DNA of 57,006 nt from Methanomicrobiales archaeon. GTDB lineage: Archaea > Halobacteriota > Methanomicrobia > Methanomicrobiales > Methanospirillaceae. Positions within the stretch are counted from its first letter, which is position 1. Every line of letters starts with the position of its first letter. Location of the stretch: positions 1-57,006 of the forward strand of contig JANYKQ010000092.1 in the NCBI GenBank assembly GCA_025358115.1. Direction: 5' to 3'. The notes beneath the pieces were generated by a model. The model was not told the DNA's origin. It was given only the letters and a program-made list of their open reading frames with translations, and searched no databases. The position numbers and the translations under genes are program-made. Shown piece by piece: positions 46,174-56,589 of the stretch.

Positions 46174-49100
46174 ATGTTAGTGCTCTCGCCCGCAATGGAG
46201 GAATATGAGAAGTCCCTCCTGGATGGTCTTCATCATGCGATAGCGATTGCAAAGGAAGCCCGCTCCCGCGGCCTCGACCCCTCCCTCGATGTCGAGATTC
46301 CCATTGCGAGCGACCTTGCCGACCGGGTCGAAGCGCTGCTCGGGATCAAGGGGGTTGCGGTGCGGATCCGGGAACTCGAAGCCCAGATGTCGCGTGAGGA
46401 GATCGCGCTCCGGATAGGTGACGACTTTGTTGCCCGGAAGTTCGGGGAGATCTCTGTTCTTGAGGTTCTCGACCATGCCATCCGGGTGGCGATGGCCCTG
46501 CTCACGGAAGGTGTCGTGGCGGCACCCACCGAAGGGATTGCAAAGATCGAGCTCGGCAAGAACGATGACGGCAGCCAGTACCTGATGATCTTCTATGCAG
46601 GTCCCATCCGGAGTGCCGGCGGTACTGCTCAGGCACTCTCGGTGCTGGTCGGGGATTATGTGCGCCAGAAGCTGGGTATCAACCGCTACATCCCCCGGCA
46701 GGAAGAAGTCGAGCGGTACATCGAGGAGATCCGGCAGTACAACTCGATCATGAACCTCCAGTACCTGCCGAGCGAGGCGGAGATCCGGCTCATCATCGAG
46801 AACTGCCCGGTCTGCATTGACGGTGAAGCCACCGAGCAGGAGGAGGTGTCCGGGCACCGGAACCTTGAGCGGGTTGAGACCAACACCGTGCGGGGCGGCA
46901 TGGCGCTCGTTATCGGGGAAGGTATTGCTGGCAAGGCCCGCAAGCTCAAGAGCCGGGTTGAGAAGATGAAGATGGAGGGCTGGGACTGGCTCGACAAGCT
47001 CATTGCCGGCGCCTCGAAGTCCGGCGATGAGGAAAAATTCGTAGGTGTCAAACCCCTGGACAAGTACCTCCGCGACCTGATCGGCGGGAGACCGGTCTTT
47101 GCCTACCCGATGAGAAAAGGCGGCTTCCGGCTCCGGTACGGCCGTTCGCGCAACACGGGTTTCGCCGCTGCCGGCTTTCACCCGTCCACCCTGTACGTGC
47201 TGGGGGAGTTTCTCGCCACCGGCACTCAGATGAAGACCGAACGGCCGGGCAAGGCCTGCGGGGTTGTGCCGGTGGACTCGATCGAAGGCCCGACCGTGCG
47301 CCTCACCAGTGGCGACGTGCTCCGGATCGATGACGAAGCCCAGGCGAAGCGGCTCCAGCCCGTGATCGAGCGGATCCTTGATGTGGGAGAGATCCTCATC
47401 TCGTACGGGGAATTTTTGGAGAACAACCACCCGCTCGTCCCTTCCGGCTACTGCGATGAATGGTGGCTGCTCGACAGTGAACCGGGCACAAAATCCCCCA
47501 AAGATGAAGGGGAGGCGATTGCATTCGCCAAAGCAGGTGGGTATCTCCACCCGGCCTACACATGGTTCTGGGACGATATCACCATGGACCAGATCCGTAC
47601 GCTTGCTGATGCGGTTGCGGGCACGGGAAAGATTGTCGACGATTACCTCCAGCTCCCGCTTGAACCGGTAACCAAGGATATCCTTGAAACACTGCTCCTG
47701 CCCCATATCGTGCGGGACGGGTTCGTGAAGATCCACCTGTTCCCGGCATTCATCGCGTGCCTTGGGCTGGATGAGATGCTGGTAAAACGCGAGGTCTGGA
47801 AGAATGCCCCGGATACAAACCAGCTGGACCTTGTCCAGCACCTTTCCGGCTTTAAGATGCGGTCGCGTTCAGGAACGCGTATCGGCGGGCGCATGGGCAG
47901 ACCGGGGAAATCCAAGCCCCGGAAGATGAACCCCCCCCCGCACGTTCTCTTCCCGCTCGGAGACACCGGGGGTGCCCGGCGGTCGTTCCAGTCCGCCTCC
48001 TCCCATATCGAGCAGGAGGACCAGAACGATACCGAGATCGGTATCCAGAAGGAGAGCGGGATCATCGAGATCGAAGTAGGTCGCCGTCGCTGCTCCCCGT
48101 GCGGGGAGATCACCTATCTCAACCGGTGCGAGTGCGGCGGGCATACCGTTGCGGTCTTTACCTGCATCAAGTGTGGCAGGGAGACCAACCTGCCCCGGTG
48201 TCCTGCCTGCGATGGCCAGGCCACCTGCTCCCAGCGGCTCAAGCTGGATGTCAAGGGGGAATATGCCAAGGTGATGGCCCGCCTCGGGATGAAGACCGAT
48301 GCGGTTGCGCTCGTCAAGGGTGTCAAGGGCATGATCTCGAAGGAGAAGTCTGTCGAGGCAATGGAGAAGGGGATCCTGCGGGGGATCCAGAACATCTGGG
48401 TCTTTAAAGACGGGACCACGCGGTTTGACATGATCGACCTGCCGCTCACCCACATCCGCCCCGATGAGGTGTGTGTGCCGGTCGAGAAACTCCGCTCGCT
48501 GGGCTATACCAAAGACACCCACGGGTACGATCTCCAGAATGGCAAGCAGGTGCTGGAGCTCCATGCCCAGGATCTCCTTGTCTCTGACTCCTGTGCCAAG
48601 TACATGGTGAGCGTGGCAAATTTTATGGACGACCTGCTGGTCAAAGTCTATGGCCTGCCCCCGTTCTACAACATCAAGAAGCCCGATGATCTCGTGGGGC
48701 ATCTCGTGATTGGCCTCGCCCCGCATACGAGTGCCGGGGTACTCGCCCGGATCATCGGGTTCACCCGGGCAGACGTAGGGTATGCCCACCCGTTCTTCCA
48801 CGCAGCAAAGCGAAGGAACTGCTTCTTTGGCGATACTGTGATTGAGGTATACGATGGCCGGACATGGACCCGGCACCCGATCCGGAAGTTCGTGCTGGAG
48901 AACTTCGATCTGAGCCGCCCGGGTCTCGACCAGCTCGGGACCTATTACTCGGACCCGTCCCGGCCGTATTACACTCGCACCATCGATACGAGTGGCGTGA
49001 TGCACATCCGTAAAGTCACAACGGTCTCCATCCACCGCTCACCGGCTACCCTGCTCCGGATAACGACTGCAATGGGCAAGGATATTGCGGTAACTCCCGA

Positions 49101-50085
49101 TCATGCGATGCTGGTCTGGGATACGGCGTACCTCCGGAAGATCCGGGCGCTCGAACTCAAAGTCGGGGATGCCGTGCCGGTGCTTGAAGGCATGAACGTG
49201 ATCTCGGACCGTATCAGTGCTATCGACATTGTGCCGGCCCCCGAGGAACGGGTCTACTGCCTGACCGTTGCTGACGACCATACGCTGGTGGCAAACGGGA
49301 TCTTCACCGGCCAGTGCGATGGTGACGAGGACTGTATAATGCTCCTCTTGGACGGCCTGATCAACTTCTCGCGTTCGTTTCTGCCCCAGAACCGGGGCGG
49401 GTCCATGGATGCCCCACTCGTGCTGACGAGCCGGATCGATCCGGCCCAGATCGACAAGGAAGCCCTGAACGTCGATGTCTGTGAAGGTTACCCGATCGAG
49501 GTGTACCTGGGAGCGCTCAACTACATCGAGCCCAAGACAATCGTCAAGCTCATCGACCGGGTCGAGAACCGGATCGGCACCCCCGCCCAGCTCGAAGGGT
49601 TCCAGTTCACCCATGATACCTCGGATATCTCGTCAGGCCCCATTGAATCCATGTACACCCAGCTCAAGTCGATGACCGACAAGCTTGAGGCCGAACTGGT
49701 ACTGGCAGAGAAGATCCGGGCGGTTGATGCCGATGATGTGGCCGAGCGGGTGCTCAATACGCATTTCATCCGGGACCTGATGGGCAACCTGTCGGCGTTC
49801 TCGAAACAGAAGTGCCGGTGCACGAAGTGCAACACAAGCTACCGCCGTATGCCGCTTTCGGGCAAGTGCACCAAGTTCAAGGGCAAGTACCCGTGCAATG
49901 GCAACATCATCGCCACGGTGCACGAGGGCTCGGTGAAGAAATATCTCGAGATGTCCCGCGAGATCTGCCGGAAGTACAAGGTCTCGGAGTACACCAAGCA
50001 GCGGGTCGAGGTTATCGACCTGGCGATCCAGTCCACGTTCGGGGACGTGAAGGAGCAGCAACTGGGCCTTGCCGACTTCATGTGA
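46174..50085 (+). CDS. polC: DNA polymerase D large subunit (DP2) with intein
   Basis: 1303 residues as translated, about 1138 after splicing, typical of DP2. It is the catalytic subunit of the archaeal replicative PolD and pairs with the DP1 exonuclease. Zinc-finger cysteines are plentiful: [34 protein letters not shown] and [13 protein letters not shown]. The active site contains the aspartates of CDGDEDC, and the intein lies exactly before them. Extein junctions are HAAKRRN/C and Q/CDGDED. The polymerase is inactive until the intein is removed. A long antisense open frame over its first half is a composition shadow. Confidence 0.95.
48820..49314 (+). mobile_element. Mini-intein in polC
   Basis: 165 residues in frame inside polC. 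It starts [13 protein letters not shown] (block A, Cys1) and has TPDHAMLVW (block B, T-x2-H). It ends with [12 protein letters not shown] and VANGIFTGQ (blocks F and G) before Cys +1. It is far too short for a homing endonuclease, so it is a mini-intein that can splice but not spread. The last residue is Gln rather than Asn and the residue before it is Gly rather than His, the unusual C-end known for some PolII inteins. Confidence 0.93.
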
Positions 50086-51451: not shown

Positions 51452-51536
51452 GCGAGGGTATCTAAGCCTGGTCAACAGAGACGGACTCAAGATCCGTTCC
51501 CGCAGGGGTTCGCGGGTTCAAATCCCTCCCCTCGCA
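51452..51536 (+). tRNA. tRNA-Leu (CAA)
   Basis: 85 bases. Acceptor GCGAGGG pairs with CCCTCGC, with A as discriminator. The D loop contains GCCTGGTCAA. The anticodon loop CTCAAGA in stem ACGGA/TCCGT gives anticodon CAA, decoding UUG. There is a long variable arm as in class II tRNAs. The T arm is GCGGG-TTCAAAT-CCCTC with one C:T mismatch. CCA is not encoded. An AT-rich island follows directly. Confidence 0.85.
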
Positions 51537-51683: not shown

Positions 51684-54600
51684 ATGTCAAAAGCAGTTGC
51701 ATTTGTCAGTCCATTTTCATCTGGTCCTGGTGGATCTCGGTTCGAGTTATTGGTTGCCACGTTTTATTTGACATCAATGTTAAAGGGAGAAATTCCTTTA
51801 GGATATGACAATGGGGGGCTACTTGAATCTGTAAAATTACAACAAAGGAATAAAGGCAACCCCGTAGATGATGTGGTAATTCAATCTCAAAAAGGTGAAT
51901 TATCAATTCAAGTTAAACATTCAGTCCGCTTTACCAACAATAAGTCTAAAACAAGTGGAAAATATCCTGAATTTTATGAGGCCCTTTCACAATGTTGGTC
52001 CCTATTCAATAGTGCGAGTTTCAAACGTGATATCGATTGTTTTGGGATTGCGTTCAACGAGGCGACCATTCCAATAAAAACAAGAAGTAATCTTAACGAT
52101 ACCATAGACTGGGCCAAACGAGAGAGAACTGTTAAATCCTACCTTAAACAACTCGGAAAGTCCGAGGAAAAGAAAAAATATTTTGATATTTTTCAGGATC
52201 TTTTATCAGATATTTCAGAAACCCATATCGATGATAAAACGACTTGGGAATTTATTCGTCATTTTGTAATTTTACCATTTGATTTTAATCAATCATCGGG
52301 TCATAGTACCAATGAATTACAGAATAAACTCCTTGATATCTCAAAATTTAGATCACCAGATAATGCAAAAACTCTGCTATCAATTCTTTATTATTTAGCA
52401 ACAGATTACGCAATAACCGGGGGAGAACACGATTGTTTTTCATTAGAAAAACAATTACCAATGAATGTCTACGCACCTATCAATAACGTATCATCATACA
52501 TTCTTCAGAAAAACTTGGAATTACAGCTTAAACAAAAAATTGATCGGGAGATAAAATCAAAAAAGTATATTCCGGGTTTATTCACCGAATCACCTAGTGC
52601 CAATGAAGATCTTCGAATTTTCTCTGATCCAGTTTTATTTATCCAAAAAATTGTTGAGGATTTACAAAGAGTTGATGTTTATCTCTATAACGAATTCGCT
52701 ACCAAACTCAATTTTCCATTACTTAAAATTGAACCACCGAACACTTTTCGAATGCCGAATACTATTTCAGATGCAATAGATGCATCTGATATTCTAAAGA
52801 ATTACGTATCAAGTATTATTAAAGATTTAAAAGATCTCGACCCTTACAAGGGAAAGAAAATAAAAAAATATGTGACAGATACGAATCGCTCACTTTTTAA
52901 GGCAGTTGACTACCGGTTTTATGGATGTATTCTCTCTGTTCAGCATGAATTAGAACGAATAGAGCATGGTCTAAATCTCATAAAATCTCAAGTTCTAATT
53001 ATCGAAGGAAAAGCTGCATCCGGCAAAACAAATTTCATATGTAATTTTGCAGATCGGACATTGAGAACACGTCAACAAACATCATTCTATATTACTGGAT
53101 ATGATCTGTCGAATGAAGCATCAACGACTTCCTTAAGATTATATTTGATAAATCGATTTAATGAGGAATACGACGGAAAATTATCTCGGCTAAGTCTAGA
53201 TATTGAAAAAATTTGTTTGAAAGAAAAGAAACCAGTGTTAATAATTATTGATGGAATAAATGAACACTCAGACCTCTCACACTTTGCTGGTCAGCTTGAA
53301 CAAGTAATTGAAGAGTTTACATCCACAATTTATGTTAAATTTATTCTAACATGTAGATCTGAAAATTTTGATAAACGTTTTTCAAATTTAAAAACTGCAA
53401 GTTTCGCTGATAAGCTTTCAGTTATCCAAAATTTCTCCCATAATATTGCCCCAATTCATAAAAAATTCATGATACGCGTCTATTTTAAATATTTTAAACT
53501 TATTTGTCATCCGAGTGAAGAGGTGATTGATACATTTATCAAAAATCCTCTGATATTGCGATTATTTTGTGAAGGATACGGGTCTGAAAACGGTAAGAAT
53601 GATGTTACGATTGGGCCCCTGTATAGTATCCATTTACCCATTCTTTTCGATAGGTACAATAGTAGAATCAGCAACCATTTTGAGAAAAAGTATCCCGATA
53701 CAGGCTTTAAAAGAAAATACGGAGAGTTGTTGAATAAACTCGCTGATTATATGCTTATCAATAAAAAATTTTCAAATGTGCCTGTAAATTCAATTTCGAG
53801 TGAATTTGATAGAATTGTTGCAATATTAGTTAATGAAGGGGTAATTTTACGTAAGGATTTGCCCGATAAAAAATCTATCACACTCGATTCTGAAGTACTC
53901 AATTTTACATATGACGAGTTCAGGGACTATATATTGGCAGATTATCTTGTAAAGATAATTTCAGTTGACAATTTTGATCGTTTTAAAGAACTATTCGCGG
54001 AATTGGTTTCCCCAGATTGTCCGGTTTCGGAAGGGATTGGGTATTATACATTTGTAATATCACGTCGAGATCACAATAAAAGAATATTAGACTACCTAAA
54101 AACGCTAGACAATTACGACGAAATTTATATTAGAGCAATTTTTACTATTGATAATTCGTTGATTTTCCAAGAAGATCTTGAAACGATTAAACGACTTTTT
54201 CAAAAGGATAGTCACACCGTTGAATTAATTTATTCAGGTTTGCTCCATCGCCGAGATAAAACAGAATTTCCAATTCTGAATATTTGGTTATTCTTTGATT
54301 TGGTATCTCAACTCAACAAATCAGAATATATTCGTCTGATTCGACCCATTTTCTCATTGAGCCACAATTGGCTTGATGCGACATATGACGGTATAAAAAA
54401 TATAATTGGTGGCTGTACCAAGTTAACGATAGAATTTGACGCATACACCTCATTAATCGAGATTTTAATTTGCTTATCACCAAAAGTAAATTCATATGAA
54501 TTATTTTTTGAAATCGCAAAAAAACACCCTAAACTAACCACATCTTTGTTAAAAAAATATTTAGAAAATCCTGAATCATATGTTGGCGAAACAATGTGGC

Positions 54601-54755
54601 GCATACTAGCGTTCTCACAATTAAAAGCGTTCTATAATGATGAGATATATCGTTTGGCATTAAAAATTAAAAATACTGGATCTACAAAAAAGAATCCTGA
54701 TCTTCAGACCTCAATTGATTTCTTGATATTAACAATGGAGGGTCAAAATGATTGA
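51684..54755 (+). CDS. Nuclease-STAND/NACHT NTPase (Avs-like defence protein)
   Basis: 1023 residues, AT-rich. Residues ~15-85 look like a PD-(D/E)xK/Mrr or Cap4-type nuclease: GGSRFELLVA (Glu21), NPVDDVVI (Asp62/63) and SIQVKHS (Gln76-x-Lys78). A STAND/NACHT-like NTPase domain has Walker A GKAASGKT (442-449) and Walker B LIIIDGIN (Asp523), with ILTCRS after it. The C-terminal ~350 residues are helical and may be the sensor. Avs and bNACHT proteins sense phage proteins and then cut DNA; I infer such a role. Codons differ strongly from the rest of the window. It overlaps the next gene by 8 bases. Confidence 0.82.
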   Translation: MSKAVAFVSPFSSGPGGSRFELLVATFYLTSMLKGEIPLGYDNGGLLESVKLQQRNKGNPVDDVVIQSQKGELSIQVKHSVRFTNNKSKTSGKYPEFYEALSQCWSLFNSASFKRDIDCFGIAFNEATIPIKTRSNLNDTIDWAKRERTVKSYLKQLGKSEEKKKYFDIFQDLLSDISETHIDDKTTWEFIRHFVILPFDFNQSSGHSTNELQNKLLDISKFRSPDNAKTLLSILYYLATDYAITGGEHDCFSLEKQLPMNVYAPINNVSSYILQKNLELQLKQKIDREIKSKKYIPGLFTESPSANEDLRIFSDPVLFIQKIVEDLQRVDVYLYNEFATKLNFPLLKIEPPNTFRMPNTISDAIDASDILKNYVSSIIKDLKDLDPYKGKKIKKYVTDTNRSLFKAVDYRFYGCILSVQHELERIEHGLNLIKSQVLIIEGKAASGKTNFICNFADRTLRTRQQTSFYITGYDLSNEASTTSLRLYLINRFNEEYDGKLSRLSLDIEKICLKEKKPVLIIIDGINEHSDLSHFAGQLEQVIEEFTSTIYVKFILTCRSENFDKRFSNLKTASFADKLSVIQNFSHNIAPIHKKFMIRVYFKYFKLICHPSEEVIDTFIKNPLILRLFCEGYGSENGKNDVTIGPLYSIHLPILFDRYNSRISNHFEKKYPDTGFKRKYGELLNKLADYMLINKKFSNVPVNSISSEFDRIVAILVNEGVILRKDLPDKKSITLDSEVLNFTYDEFRDYILADYLVKIISVDNFDRFKELFAELVSPDCPVSEGIGYYTFVISRRDHNKRILDYLKTLDNYDEIYIRAIFTIDNSLIFQEDLETIKRLFQKDSHTVELIYSGLLHRRDKTEFPILNIWLFFDLVSQLNKSEYIRLIRPIFSLSHNWLDATYDGIKNIIGGCTKLTIEFDAYTSLIEILICLSPKVNSYELFFEIAKKHPKLTTSLLKKYLENPESYVGETMWRILAFSQLKAFYNDEIYRLALKIKNTGSTKKNPDLQTSIDFLILTMEGQND

Positions 54756-55206
54756 AAAAATCACGATCAATAAACCAAATAATAATCTCTATACAACTAG
54801 TGATTCCAGAGATGGTTTCTTAATTTGCCTTCCAGAAAAATGCACATACGATGATTTTTTAATCGCTGCGAAGGTTGAACCTAATTCCTACAGTTCTGCC
54901 CTATTATCAAGATTATATCATGGATTAAAAACGTCTTCGATAAAAGTCGATGAGGAATATCGTAAATATTACTCAAATGAGTACAAAAATTTACTCCATT
55001 TTTTGTTTTGGAAATATTGTATCCCGGTAAGCATATCAAAAAAAGTGTTAACAGAATTACATCCTGGGGAAACTGTATTTTATAATACATTTTCATCAGG
55101 ATGTTCTTGGACCGCTGATGCATTCATTGACAATCATACCATGATGAAAACACTAAATGCAATTATTGATGAGGTTCGGAGGAGGTATTATGAAAATTCG
55201 AAGTGA
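54748..55206 (+). CDS. Unknown protein of the defence-like operon
   Basis: 152 residues, soluble, AT-rich. Its ATG lies 8 bases inside the STAND gene and its end overlaps the next gene by 17 bases, so it is coupled to both. Mixed alpha/beta with Tyr and Ser rich segments and cysteines in LICLPEKC, WKYCIP and SSGCSW. The helical ending IIDEVRRRYYENSK is basic. No known family recognised. It could be an adaptor, an inhibitor or a sensor subunit of the nuclease-NTPase. Confidence 0.7.
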   Translation: MIEKITINKPNNNLYTTSDSRDGFLICLPEKCTYDDFLIAAKVEPNSYSSALLSRLYHGLKTSSIKVDEEYRKYYSNEYKNLLHFLFWKYCIPVSISKKVLTELHPGETVFYNTFSSGCSWTADAFIDNHTMMKTLNAIIDEVRRRYYENSK

Positions 55207-55561
55207 TTTCGTCACAAACAGTTCAACAACCTCCTTCGTTATTATTTCGAAAGGAGATTTCACCAAGAGGAAATTTTTTAATCTTGTAGGATTACAAAAG
55301 GGCTCACCATTAGTTCCCGTTTTTGAAAAATTGTTTAATCTATTTGAAGAAAACATGACTCAAATTGATGATTCTAATCAATTTGCCGATGATATTAACC
55401 TCAAAAAAATAATTGATGAAAGCTTAAAAACGGGGAAAAAAGTCTACCATGGTAAATTATCAAGTGATAACGGGGATGGCATAGAATCATATTTTTGTAT
55501 GGATTCATTCGAAATGAGAAACAATATTTTGTATATTAATGCTGTCGATTGTTACTGGTGA
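55190..55561 (+). CDS. MKIR-DFVTNSS-type small protein, possible rSAM substrate
   Basis: 123 residues from ATG 55190, with an outstanding GGAGGAGG binding site. The N-terminus MKIRSDFVTNSSTTSFVI matches a recurrent leader-like motif (MKIRxxFVTNSSSSSF) that I remember from many otherwise unrelated small proteins. The rest is mixed, ending in DCYW with a C-terminal Cys. It overlaps the upstream gene by 17 bases, and its TGA shares one base with the ATG of the radical SAM/SPASM gene, so the two are tightly coupled. Radical SAM/SPASM enzymes commonly modify small peptides, so this protein is the natural candidate substrate. Confidence 0.75.
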   Translation: MKIRSDFVTNSSTTSFVIISKGDFTKRKFFNLVGLQKGSPLVPVFEKLFNLFEENMTQIDDSNQFADDINLKKIIDESLKTGKKVYHGKLSSDNGDGIESYFCMDSFEMRNNILYINAVDCYW

Positions 55562-56589
55562 TGGCCATTCTCATCCATAAATATTTTCCAAAGCAACATT
55601 ACTCCACACTCTTTAACACTAAAACCGGCTTTTTTTTACGAAAGGAAGATCCGGGTTTCTCATCACCATATTGGTCTGAATGTGGTCCGGAATTATTAGA
55701 TATTTCAATAACACGATGGTGCGATAGAGGATGTCCGCGATGCTATCGTGAATCGAATACTGCTGGTAAACATATGTCAATTCAGGATTACCGATATATT
55801 TTAGATCAAGTCAAAAAAATGCCAGTTAATCAAATTGCATTGGGTGGGGGGAATCCGAATCAGCATCCTGATTTTAGTAAAATTTTACAGGTAACACGAC
55901 AGGAATATGGTATTGTCCCATCCTATACATCAAACGGTAGAGGGTTAACTCAAGAAGTGCTTGAATCCTCAAAGAAATATTGCGGGGCTGTTGCAATAAG
56001 TGCATATCCCCCATATGAGGATCTCACAAACGCAATTCAAAAACTTACATCCATTGGAATAAAGACGAATATCCATTTTGTTTTAGACAAAGAAAGTATT
56101 CTGACCGCAATAAGCTGGTTGAAAGAACCCCCAGCATTTTTAATAAAAGTTAATGCCATGATTTTCCTTAATTTTAAACCGCTTGGAAGGTTTGAAAAAA
56201 AAATTGGTCTTTTGAAGGAAAGTGATCAATTAAAAACTTTTTTCGCTGAAACTCAAAACCCCCATCCCTATAAAATCGGTTTTGACAGTTGCTGTGTTTC
56301 AGGATTGGTGAGTTATACAAAAACATCTCCGCTTTTCTTTGATGGATGTGATGCAGGGAGATTCTCAATGTTCATATCCGAGGATATGAAAGCGTTTCCT
56401 TGTTCTTTCATGATGAATACCCATCAGGGTTACGATTTAAAAAATCACAATATAATCGATGCATGGAAAGATGGTAACGAATTTAAAGTAATTCGAAATC
56501 GGAAATGGGATAATAAGTGCAATAATTGTTTGAAAAAACAAATATGTTTAGGTGGTTGTCCCAGTTGGAATTCAATAAATCTATGTTAA
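55561..56589 (+). CDS. Radical SAM/SPASM-domain protein
   Basis: 342 residues from ATG 55561, which overlaps the upstream stop by one base; a TTG 12 bases earlier is less likely. The radical SAM cluster motif is CDRGCPRC (Cys54, 58, 61), with GGGNPNQHP as the SAM-binding GGE-type region. The C-terminal SPASM-like region has cysteines in FDGCDAG, AFPCSFM, CNNCLKKQICLGGC and the last residue Cys342, enough for one or two auxiliary [4Fe-4S] clusters. SPASM proteins generally install crosslinks or oxidise peptides (RiPP or sactipeptide type, anaerobic sulfatase maturation). Last gene of the four-gene operon. Confidence 0.88.
   Translation: MAILIHKYFPKQHYSTLFNTKTGFFLRKEDPGFSSPYWSECGPELLDISITRWCDRGCPRCYRESNTAGKHMSIQDYRYILDQVKKMPVNQIALGGGNPNQHPDFSKILQVTRQEYGIVPSYTSNGRGLTQEVLESSKKYCGAVAISAYPPYEDLTNAIQKLTSIGIKTNIHFVLDKESILTAISWLKEPPAFLIKVNAMIFLNFKPLGRFEKKIGLLKESDQLKTFFAETQNPHPYKIGFDSCCVSGLVSYTKTSPLFFDGCDAGRFSMFISEDMKAFPCSFMMNTHQGYDLKNHNIIDAWKDGNEFKVIRNRKWDNKCNNCLKKQICLGGCPSWNSINLC

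Follow-up and report, generated by a model that had tools for sequence, protein, structure and literature searches.

The right-hand end of the stretch analysed here (hereafter the window: 57,006 nucleotides, positions 1 to 57,006 of contig JANYKQ010000092.1 from a Methanomicrobiales archaeon, assembly GCA_025358115.1) raises the question of why a STAND NTPase and a radical S-adenosylmethionine (SAM) enzyme should share an operon with two small proteins. The operon encodes an effector-STAND NTPase (gene 1), a small protein (gene 2), a second small protein opening with a 16-residue motif that we call the NSS tail after its residues N10-S11-S12 (gene 3) and a radical SAM/SPASM enzyme (gene 4); coordinates are given in Table 1. 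A preliminary description of this DNA had reported a four-gene operon with successive overlaps of 8, 17 and 1 bases, and these values are exact given a gene 3 start at the ATG at 55190; the automatic open reading frame listing placed the start at 55157, but we preferred 55190 as it opens the conserved motif and lies just after GGAGGAGGT. Sequence comparison leads us to propose that the four genes probably constitute a widespread STAND immune system, in which the enzyme would modify gene 3 at its NSS tail, and genes 2 and 3, as a pair, would set or sense the state of the effector.

Recurrence of the four genes in cellular genomes

A gene 4 profile built from 20 relatives returned 292 relatives in genome contigs, and the best 80 of the 292, near-copies included, were taken; three of these (L053, L077 and L082) are truncated by the end of a contig. 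Recurrence was counted in the 71/80 loci with at least 3.5 kb of upstream sequence. All four genes were present in 59/71 loci when frames were picked by place and motif, and in 61/71 using profiles of genes 1 and 2 that were built largely from these same loci; the co-occurrence in other genomes to which the preliminary description had looked is thus borne out, and the arrangement is no chance one. An NSS-tail gene lies directly upstream of gene 4 in 64/71 loci and somewhere in the locus in 69/71, while a P-loop gene 1 is found in 63/71. The adjacent tail gene and the P-loop gene 1 occur together in 61/71, and the loci concerned span 16 phyla, two of them archaeal. Rhodobacter sp. CZR27 (L034) has an operon of this kind. 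Across the 80 cellular loci, the 0.51 Mb of DNA lying no more than 3 kb from the enzyme gene contains 87 NSS frames, and the 0.59 Mb further out contains a single one, a member of a tandem array. Six loci from Myxococcota metagenome-assembled genomes (L088, L089, L096, L097, L098 and L107) carry a radical SAM gene with two to four NSS-tail genes and no STAND gene; the tail-protein bodies of L098 and L102 are 32-35% identical on alignment with gene 3.

The operon is also carried on plasmids. Matches to gene 4 at 47-49% were returned from seven Alphaproteobacteria plasmid records, and two of the four records inspected hold all four genes, including a gene 1 with a SMEK domain. Gene 1 is annotated as two frames on plasmid L035, and no gene 2 frame was found on L036.

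Within gene 3, conservation is concentrated in the tail, with a mean column entropy of 0.58 bits over the first 16 columns vs 2.24 bits for the remainder (51 relatives, taken from motif-bearing frames that start with ATG). The N-terminal consensus is MK[IV][RK]x[DG]F[VI][TS]NSSSTSF, in which N10, S11, S12 and T14 are invariant across the 51 relatives. In the body, G34, S92, C103 and the C-terminal W123 stand out, the last three each being kept in 50/51. The strict motif was matched by 75/77 frames picked upstream of gene 4, a pick that favoured motif-bearing frames and from which L053 and L107 were dropped, as the frame picked there was not a tail gene. Tail codons differ at nearly every position while the residues hold (85 distinct sequences), which rules out a DNA-level regulatory element at the start of gene 3. 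Codon class is almost constant at two positions (AGY in 84/85 at position 11 and TCN in 83/85 at position 12), so the serines there have probably seldom been lost and regained.

Genes 2 and 3 are paralogues, with the NSS tail on gene 3 only: alignment of their profiles by hhalign covered 103 columns with a probability of 98.3 (E 2.2e-14). In the AlphaFold model of gene 3, the predicted local distance difference test score (pLDDT) averages 85.6 for the whole protein and 51 over residues 1-10, so we regard the protein as a loose tail on a folded body. A Foldseek search of the gene 2 and gene 3 models against the PDB returned no match at E <= 0.001.

The radical SAM enzyme and the NSS tail in large phages

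Gene 4 is clearly a radical SAM protein, and its earlier designation as a radical SAM/SPASM enzyme stands: the SPASM domain scores above the NCBIfam domain cut-off (Table 1), although below that of Pfam (17.2 vs 21.5). Among the best 25 of the 42 matching NCBIfam families, the top match is the peptide maturase WgkB (56.0 bits, equivalog cut-off 650), and the scores against equivalog models are all far below cut-off. Its sequence relatives in the PDB are 5v1q (named Radical SAM), PqqE, SkfB and BtrN. In many of the cases studied, a SPASM domain is the sign of a peptide-modifying enzyme; the substrate of BtrN is not a peptide, and that of viperin is a nucleotide. Viperin shows a weak match to the core of gene 4 (E 7e-12), but membership of that family is ruled out (37.8 vs 180 bits, NCBIfam viperin_w_prok).

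The same enzyme and tail occur together in viral DNA. Gene 4 relatives were found on 26 viral contigs, 22 of which carry one to seven tail frames in the sequence examined. From the opposite direction, at least 120 viral stretches matched a DNA pattern built on the tail alone, and the whole contigs were searched for the enzyme (E <= 1e-10; distinct contigs among the 80 tail-pattern stretches listed). It was present on 30/36 contigs of at least 100 kb and on 17/29 of 30-100 kb (47/65 in total). Control viral contigs of at least 30 kb, drawn using neutral start patterns, had the enzyme in 0/31 cases, and 0.93 Mb of control viral DNA contained no NSS tail frame; the control pattern was the third tried, the first having given no stretch and the second nine. 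As only 5/31 controls reach 100 kb, the fairer comparison is 17/29 vs 0/26 at 30-100 kb. Profiles of genes 1 and 2 had no match at E <= 1e-5 in 146 viral loci (1.29 Mb). The radical SAM/NSS pair is thus found with gene 1 in cells and without it in phages (0/146), and the outcome that the preliminary description had named as refuting, a pair always occurring without the STAND gene, is not what is seen. Phage and cellular loci have this enzyme and the tail in common, which makes the tail the best candidate for the substrate, and we consider it very likely that gene 4 acts on the NSS protein. The preliminary description had suggested such a modification, with the small protein then arming, inhibiting or being the sensor input of the nuclease-NTPase, and its idea is partly supported.

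Coliphages RB43 and RB16 carry both the enzyme and a tail gene; in RB43 these are the radical SAM gene RB43ORF169c and a tail protein of 155 residues at 68448-68912. Relatives of the RB43 tail protein number 174 records and those of the RB43 enzyme 173, and the two tallies are nearly equal by organism, a comparison that was not made record by record. The RB43/RB16 tail protein (L176:370-837) has a weak match to a head-tail adaptor PHROG (residues 64-147, E 3.3e-10), a hint that some tagged phage protein may be structural.

An alternative is that the enzyme has a different target, be it gene 1, gene 2, a nucleotide or a cofactor, and that the NSS tail serves only to dock gene 3 on the enzyme or to direct it there. 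Radical SAM substrates are diverse, viperin models match the core of gene 4, and the tail and enzyme genes of RB43 lie apart, all of which would suit this alternative. Nevertheless, we hold it to be quite unlikely, as neither gene 1 nor gene 2 is found in the viral loci, where enzyme and tail are what is shared with the operon, the viperin score lies far under the family cut-off, and the SPASM domain and the PDB relatives 5v1q, PqqE and SkfB (BtrN being the non-peptide case) point towards a peptide.

Within loci, the tail is shared by proteins whose bodies are mostly unlike: 24/444 within-locus pairs are similar (BLASTP E <= 1e-3, in the 65 loci, most of them viral, that have at least three tail genes). 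Identity over tail residues 2-17, several positions of which are fixed by the regular expression, is 86% within loci and 76% between them. Positions 13-16, constrained by neither the search pattern nor the regular expression, are Ser in 93%, Ser/Thr in 95%, Ser in 95% and Phe/Tyr in 99% of distinct tail proteins longer than 60 aa. Cysteine is absent from 45/442 tail proteins, some of them cut at contig ends, so a thioether is unlikely as a general product.

These features bear on whether the operon could be a gene cluster for a ribosomally synthesised and post-translationally modified peptide (RiPP), secreted in modified form, with gene 1 as its immunity protein or regulator. The layout is the usual one for RiPPs, a radical SAM/SPASM enzyme beside a small protein, and WgkB is the best NCBIfam match; gene 4 also shares its fold, CX3CX2C motif and SPASM domain with RiPP maturases such as 5v1q, SkfB and PqqE. 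However, what is conserved here is the N-terminal tail, carried by folded bodies that mostly do not resemble one another, with up to seven tail genes per viral locus, rather than a leader with a variable core. Moreover, Pfam detected no transporter among the window's four genes, the only peptidases in gene 1 relatives are trypsin domains at the front of the protein, and the cysteine-free tail proteins speak against a thioether as the general product. We therefore rejected a secreted RiPP as the principal explanation, on the conserved tail and folded body, the absence of a transporter and the unlike phage bodies, and judge it highly improbable.

The STAND-linked and the viral enzymes appear as two lineages. 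In a tree of 136 enzymes (midpoint root, quick method, LG+G4; the program warned of long branches), all 67 STAND-linked enzymes fall inside one virus-free clade of 81. CX3CX2C is kept in 67/67 STAND-linked enzymes, whereas the 52 viral enzymes show it in 14 cases and another spacing in 31, with 7 not resolved. The viral spacings (L007-L032, L117-L236) include CX7CX6C, CX3CX3C and CX7CX2C, and the final SPASM cysteines are absent from several viral enzymes. Position 14 of the tail divides along similar lines, being Thr in 60/60 proteins of STAND loci, while 315 distinct viral tails have Ser in 284 and Thr in 16; shared descent of gene 3 could account for this split without any function.

Two further observations concern the viral loci. 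Radical SAM frames of 786, 778 and 619 aa (L016:3429-5789, L022:3501-5837 and L018:1458-3317) appear to have gained a GIY-YIG-like front or large inserts, so that the viral gene may harbour inteins or homing endonucleases. The 547,943-bp contig of L164 (G219) has a radical SAM match with one internal TAG and one TAA, along with nine tail-motif frames in 4.4 kb, and is possibly from a recoded phage.

The STAND NTPase and its relation to known systems

Gene 1 qualifies as a STAND P-loop protein, with a NACHT score of 27.0 bits (Pfam cut-off 26.7). A PADLOC Avs2 model matches residues 361-759 (E 1.1e-20), and the Avs2 model PDLC02164 matches 38/38 gene 1 proteins scanned. These likenesses are confined to the NTPase part. 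Matches end at about position 660 of the 1500-position Avs2 models, the score against the Avs2 equivalog NF041813 is 63.5 bits (cut-off 1000), and a PDB search using a profile of the 38 proteins returned only Avs2 (9o4e) at E <= 0.001, over residues 235-656 of 1484, the long C-terminal half showing no homology. Gene 1 therefore resembles Avs2 in having a STAND NTPase core behind an N-terminal effector, but differs in having no match to that half, and its operon adds three further conserved genes. This rules out a solo Avs2 identity, and gene 1 is not the ordinary solo Avs that, by the preliminary description's own account, would have undone its proposal.

The front of gene 1 is interchangeable. 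The 38 aligned proteins are 744-1077 aa long, and their front domains include SMEK (9), trypsin (7), DUF4062 (1), TIR (1) and alpha/beta hydrolase (1); no domain was assigned to the remaining fronts, that of the window among them. As a front domain that varies among relatives is a hallmark of immune effectors, we regard gene 1 as a modular immune effector. The preliminary description had called it a nuclease fused to a STAND NTPase and had suggested comparison with PADLOC models; the NTPase is upheld, as is the match of its core to Avs2, while the nuclease is the weakest of the labels. Residues D62, D63, Q76, K78 and H79 are invariant in six sequences, and this D-D...Q-x-K-H pattern fits a PD-(D/E)xK-like nuclease. 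Residues 1-292 have no Pfam match at E <= 1, a profile of the six relatives found nothing among PDB sequences, and a single PADLOC model matches residues 56-258 weakly (E 6e-5). In the trypsin fronts, the active-site motif was read in four sequences as GLSGSP (three) and GLSGAP (one), and the regular expression GxSGG for the trypsin serine had no match.

Bacillota relatives have an extra upstream metallo-beta-lactamase (MBL) gene, with matches to Avs1a and LmuA models in 3/3 scanned. Together with a trypsin front on gene 1, this is reminiscent of the Avs1/MBL nuclease-trypsin pair, and MBL nuclease-protease pairs have been described as moving between systems, in the accessible part of a paper (PMC12799240) in which the word 'radical' does not occur. 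In the present family, however, the pair is one effector option among several and the STAND gene is accompanied by NSS and radical SAM genes; neither an Avs1a MBL gene nor a protease-STAND Avs1b was found among the window's four genes. The Bacillota version also has a further gene of 298-313 aa 3' of the radical SAM gene (L099, L100, L103 and L109), and one of the two such genes scanned matched an integron-cassette family.

Other systems share single elements with the operon. The vWA-MoxR FtsH ternary conflict systems have a proposed radical SAM domain, likely modifying a peptide effector (PMC7159879), a similar role in a conflict setting, but with another NTPase and other partners; the accessible part of that paper does not mention an NSS tail. 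Prokaryotic viperin (pVip) is likewise a radical SAM enzyme in antiviral defence with a weak core match to gene 4, but gene 4 lies below the viperin cut-off and has a SPASM domain and a protein partner. A predicted peptide-modifying radical SAM gene has been reported in Klebsiella phages, its partner not being named in the portion available (PMC9960720), and the accessible parts of three further papers (PMC13092281, PMC10853773 and PMC4158269) contain no such radical SAM/STAND system. Searches for the letters of the NSS tail found only unrelated papers, with most subscription papers and bioRxiv outside their coverage, and searches pairing radical SAM with STAND, NACHT, SMEK, AVAST, jumbo phages or defence islands found no such system, with coverage incomplete and novelty unproven. 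A four-gene STAND system with an NSS tail is apparently undescribed.

The surroundings of the STAND loci were compared with PADLOC using 102 flanking proteins of at least 250 aa from loci between L038 and L075. This gave 171 families at E <= 1e-20, without a control set, and type I restriction, BrxL, PglZ, PtuA, HerA and AbiEii are among the 25 of the 171 families considered. Taken together, sequence comparisons make it highly probable that the operon has an immune function.

We also considered a module of the toxin-antitoxin or addiction type that has no part in defence against phages, in which gene 1 would be the toxin and the modified gene 2/gene 3 pair the antitoxin. The tight overlaps, the carriage on plasmids and the patchy spread are what such a module would show: among 199 genomes of the class, radical SAM matches at E <= 1e-20 occur in two, the source genome and G050, which carries the same operon. 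G050 belongs to the same taxonomic order as the source organism, and none of the 20 same-genus genomes listed has such a match. We nevertheless consider this alternative improbable, as the Avs2-like NTPase with its swapped effectors and the defence-type neighbours (lacking a control set) favour immunity, although toxin-antitoxin and immune roles can overlap.

Proposed mechanism and genomic setting

In the immune system that we favour, gene 4 would recognise gene 3 by its N-terminal NSS tail and make a carbon-centred change in that tail. The change may fall within N10-S11-S12, and a cross-link to F7 or F16 is a guess; the tail, flexible in the model, would then be readable. Gene 2, the paralogue that has no tail, would be the partner of gene 3, and the two, once modified, would together serve as a regulatory or sensor subunit of gene 1. 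As gene 1 has no match to the sensor half of Avs2, the job of that half has probably been taken over by this pair; we give the pair's role as sensor or regulator an even chance. Infection would disturb the pair, leading gene 1 to oligomerise, whereupon its N-terminal effector, probably a nuclease here, would attack the invader or the cell.

Several observations weigh against this scheme. Among the cellular loci, L093 and L094 have the enzyme without an NSS gene, the Myxococcota loci combine the enzyme with NSS arrays and no STAND gene, and the flanking defence-gene scan had no control set. The role of genes 2 and 3 is a guess, as neither resembles a solved fold. In the viral data, 4/26 enzyme loci (L010, L021, L023 and L027) have no tail gene in the sequence examined, the enzyme frame is present in 38/120 short stretches around the tail pattern, and the tail and enzyme genes of RB43 are some 24 kb apart. 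Four of the 47 enzyme-positive contigs hold rows of the search profile (L015, L026, L028 and L029), which leaves 43/61 without them. The enzyme is missing from 18/65 tail-bearing contigs, which may be fragments, or tails may exist without a local enzyme.

A broader possibility, which we consider unlikely, is a general role for the NSS tail as an N-terminal protein tag that has a dedicated radical SAM enzyme to write it. Large phages would place the tag on many, mostly unlike proteins (315 distinct viral tail proteins), and cells would have taken it over for immune sensing, such that the STAND system would separate self from non-self by the tag (Thr14 vs Ser14). Phage proteins bearing the phage version, or modification of gene 3 by the phage enzyme, would then displace or rewrite the cell's own tag and cause gene 1 to fire.

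The operon sits 417 bases from the end of the window, which is contig 77 of a 2.26-Mb assembly that is 70% complete. The preliminary description had noted AT-rich genes against a GC-rich background just beyond a tRNA-Leu, and this was confirmed: GC content is 32-35% from 52 kb onward vs 45-61% (mostly >50%) across the first 51 kb, and the tRNA-Leu lies directly upstream (Table 1). AT-rich and rare within the class, the operon looks horizontally acquired. No second copy of the last 22 bases of the tRNA was found in the window when up to 3 mismatches were allowed, and the tRNA is a possible but unproven integration site. Upstream, the frame at 46174-50085, which we take to be the archaeal DNA polymerase II large subunit, has an apparent intein near its C-terminal third, as read from the translation.

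Table 1. Coordinates of the operon, its features and the upstream tRNA in the window
Feature	Position	Strand	Description
tRNA-Leu (CAA)	51452-51536	+	ARAGORN; upstream of operon, possible integration site
Gene 1	51684-54755	+	Effector-STAND NTPase, 1023 aa (P0001)
Gene 1 N-terminal effector part	51684-52559	+	Residues 1-292; PD-(D/E)xK-like candidate by invariant residues, replaced by other domains in relatives
Gene 1 NACHT/STAND NTPase core	52992-53375	+	Residues 437-564; Walker A from residue 444
Gene 2	54748-55206	+	152 aa, no family; distant gene 3 paralogue without NSS tail; model pLDDT 92
GGAGGAGGT	55178-55186	+	Ribosome-binding-like site for gene 3, in the terminal part of gene 2
Gene 3	55190-55561	+	123 aa NSS-tail protein (P0005); model pLDDT 85.6
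NSS tail MKIRSDFVTNSSTTSF	55190-55237	+	Gene 3 residues 1-16; proposed radical SAM substrate
Gene 4	55561-56589	+	Radical SAM/SPASM enzyme, 342 aa (P0004)
CX3CX2C of radical SAM cluster	55720-55743	+	C54, C58, C61
SPASM domain	56347-56568	+	Residues 263-336; TIGR04085 31.7 bits, cut-off 27

Through an arrangement conserved across 16 phyla, the operon links STAND immunity with a radical SAM enzyme and the protein that is its likely substrate, and the same enzyme-tail pair is present in many large phages, where the 16-residue motif offers an annotation handle for proteins now called hypothetical. If the tail is modified, this would be an unrecognised protein modification of phages, testable in coliphages RB43 and RB16, and would give an Avs-like NTPase a new way to sense infection without a sensor half of its own.

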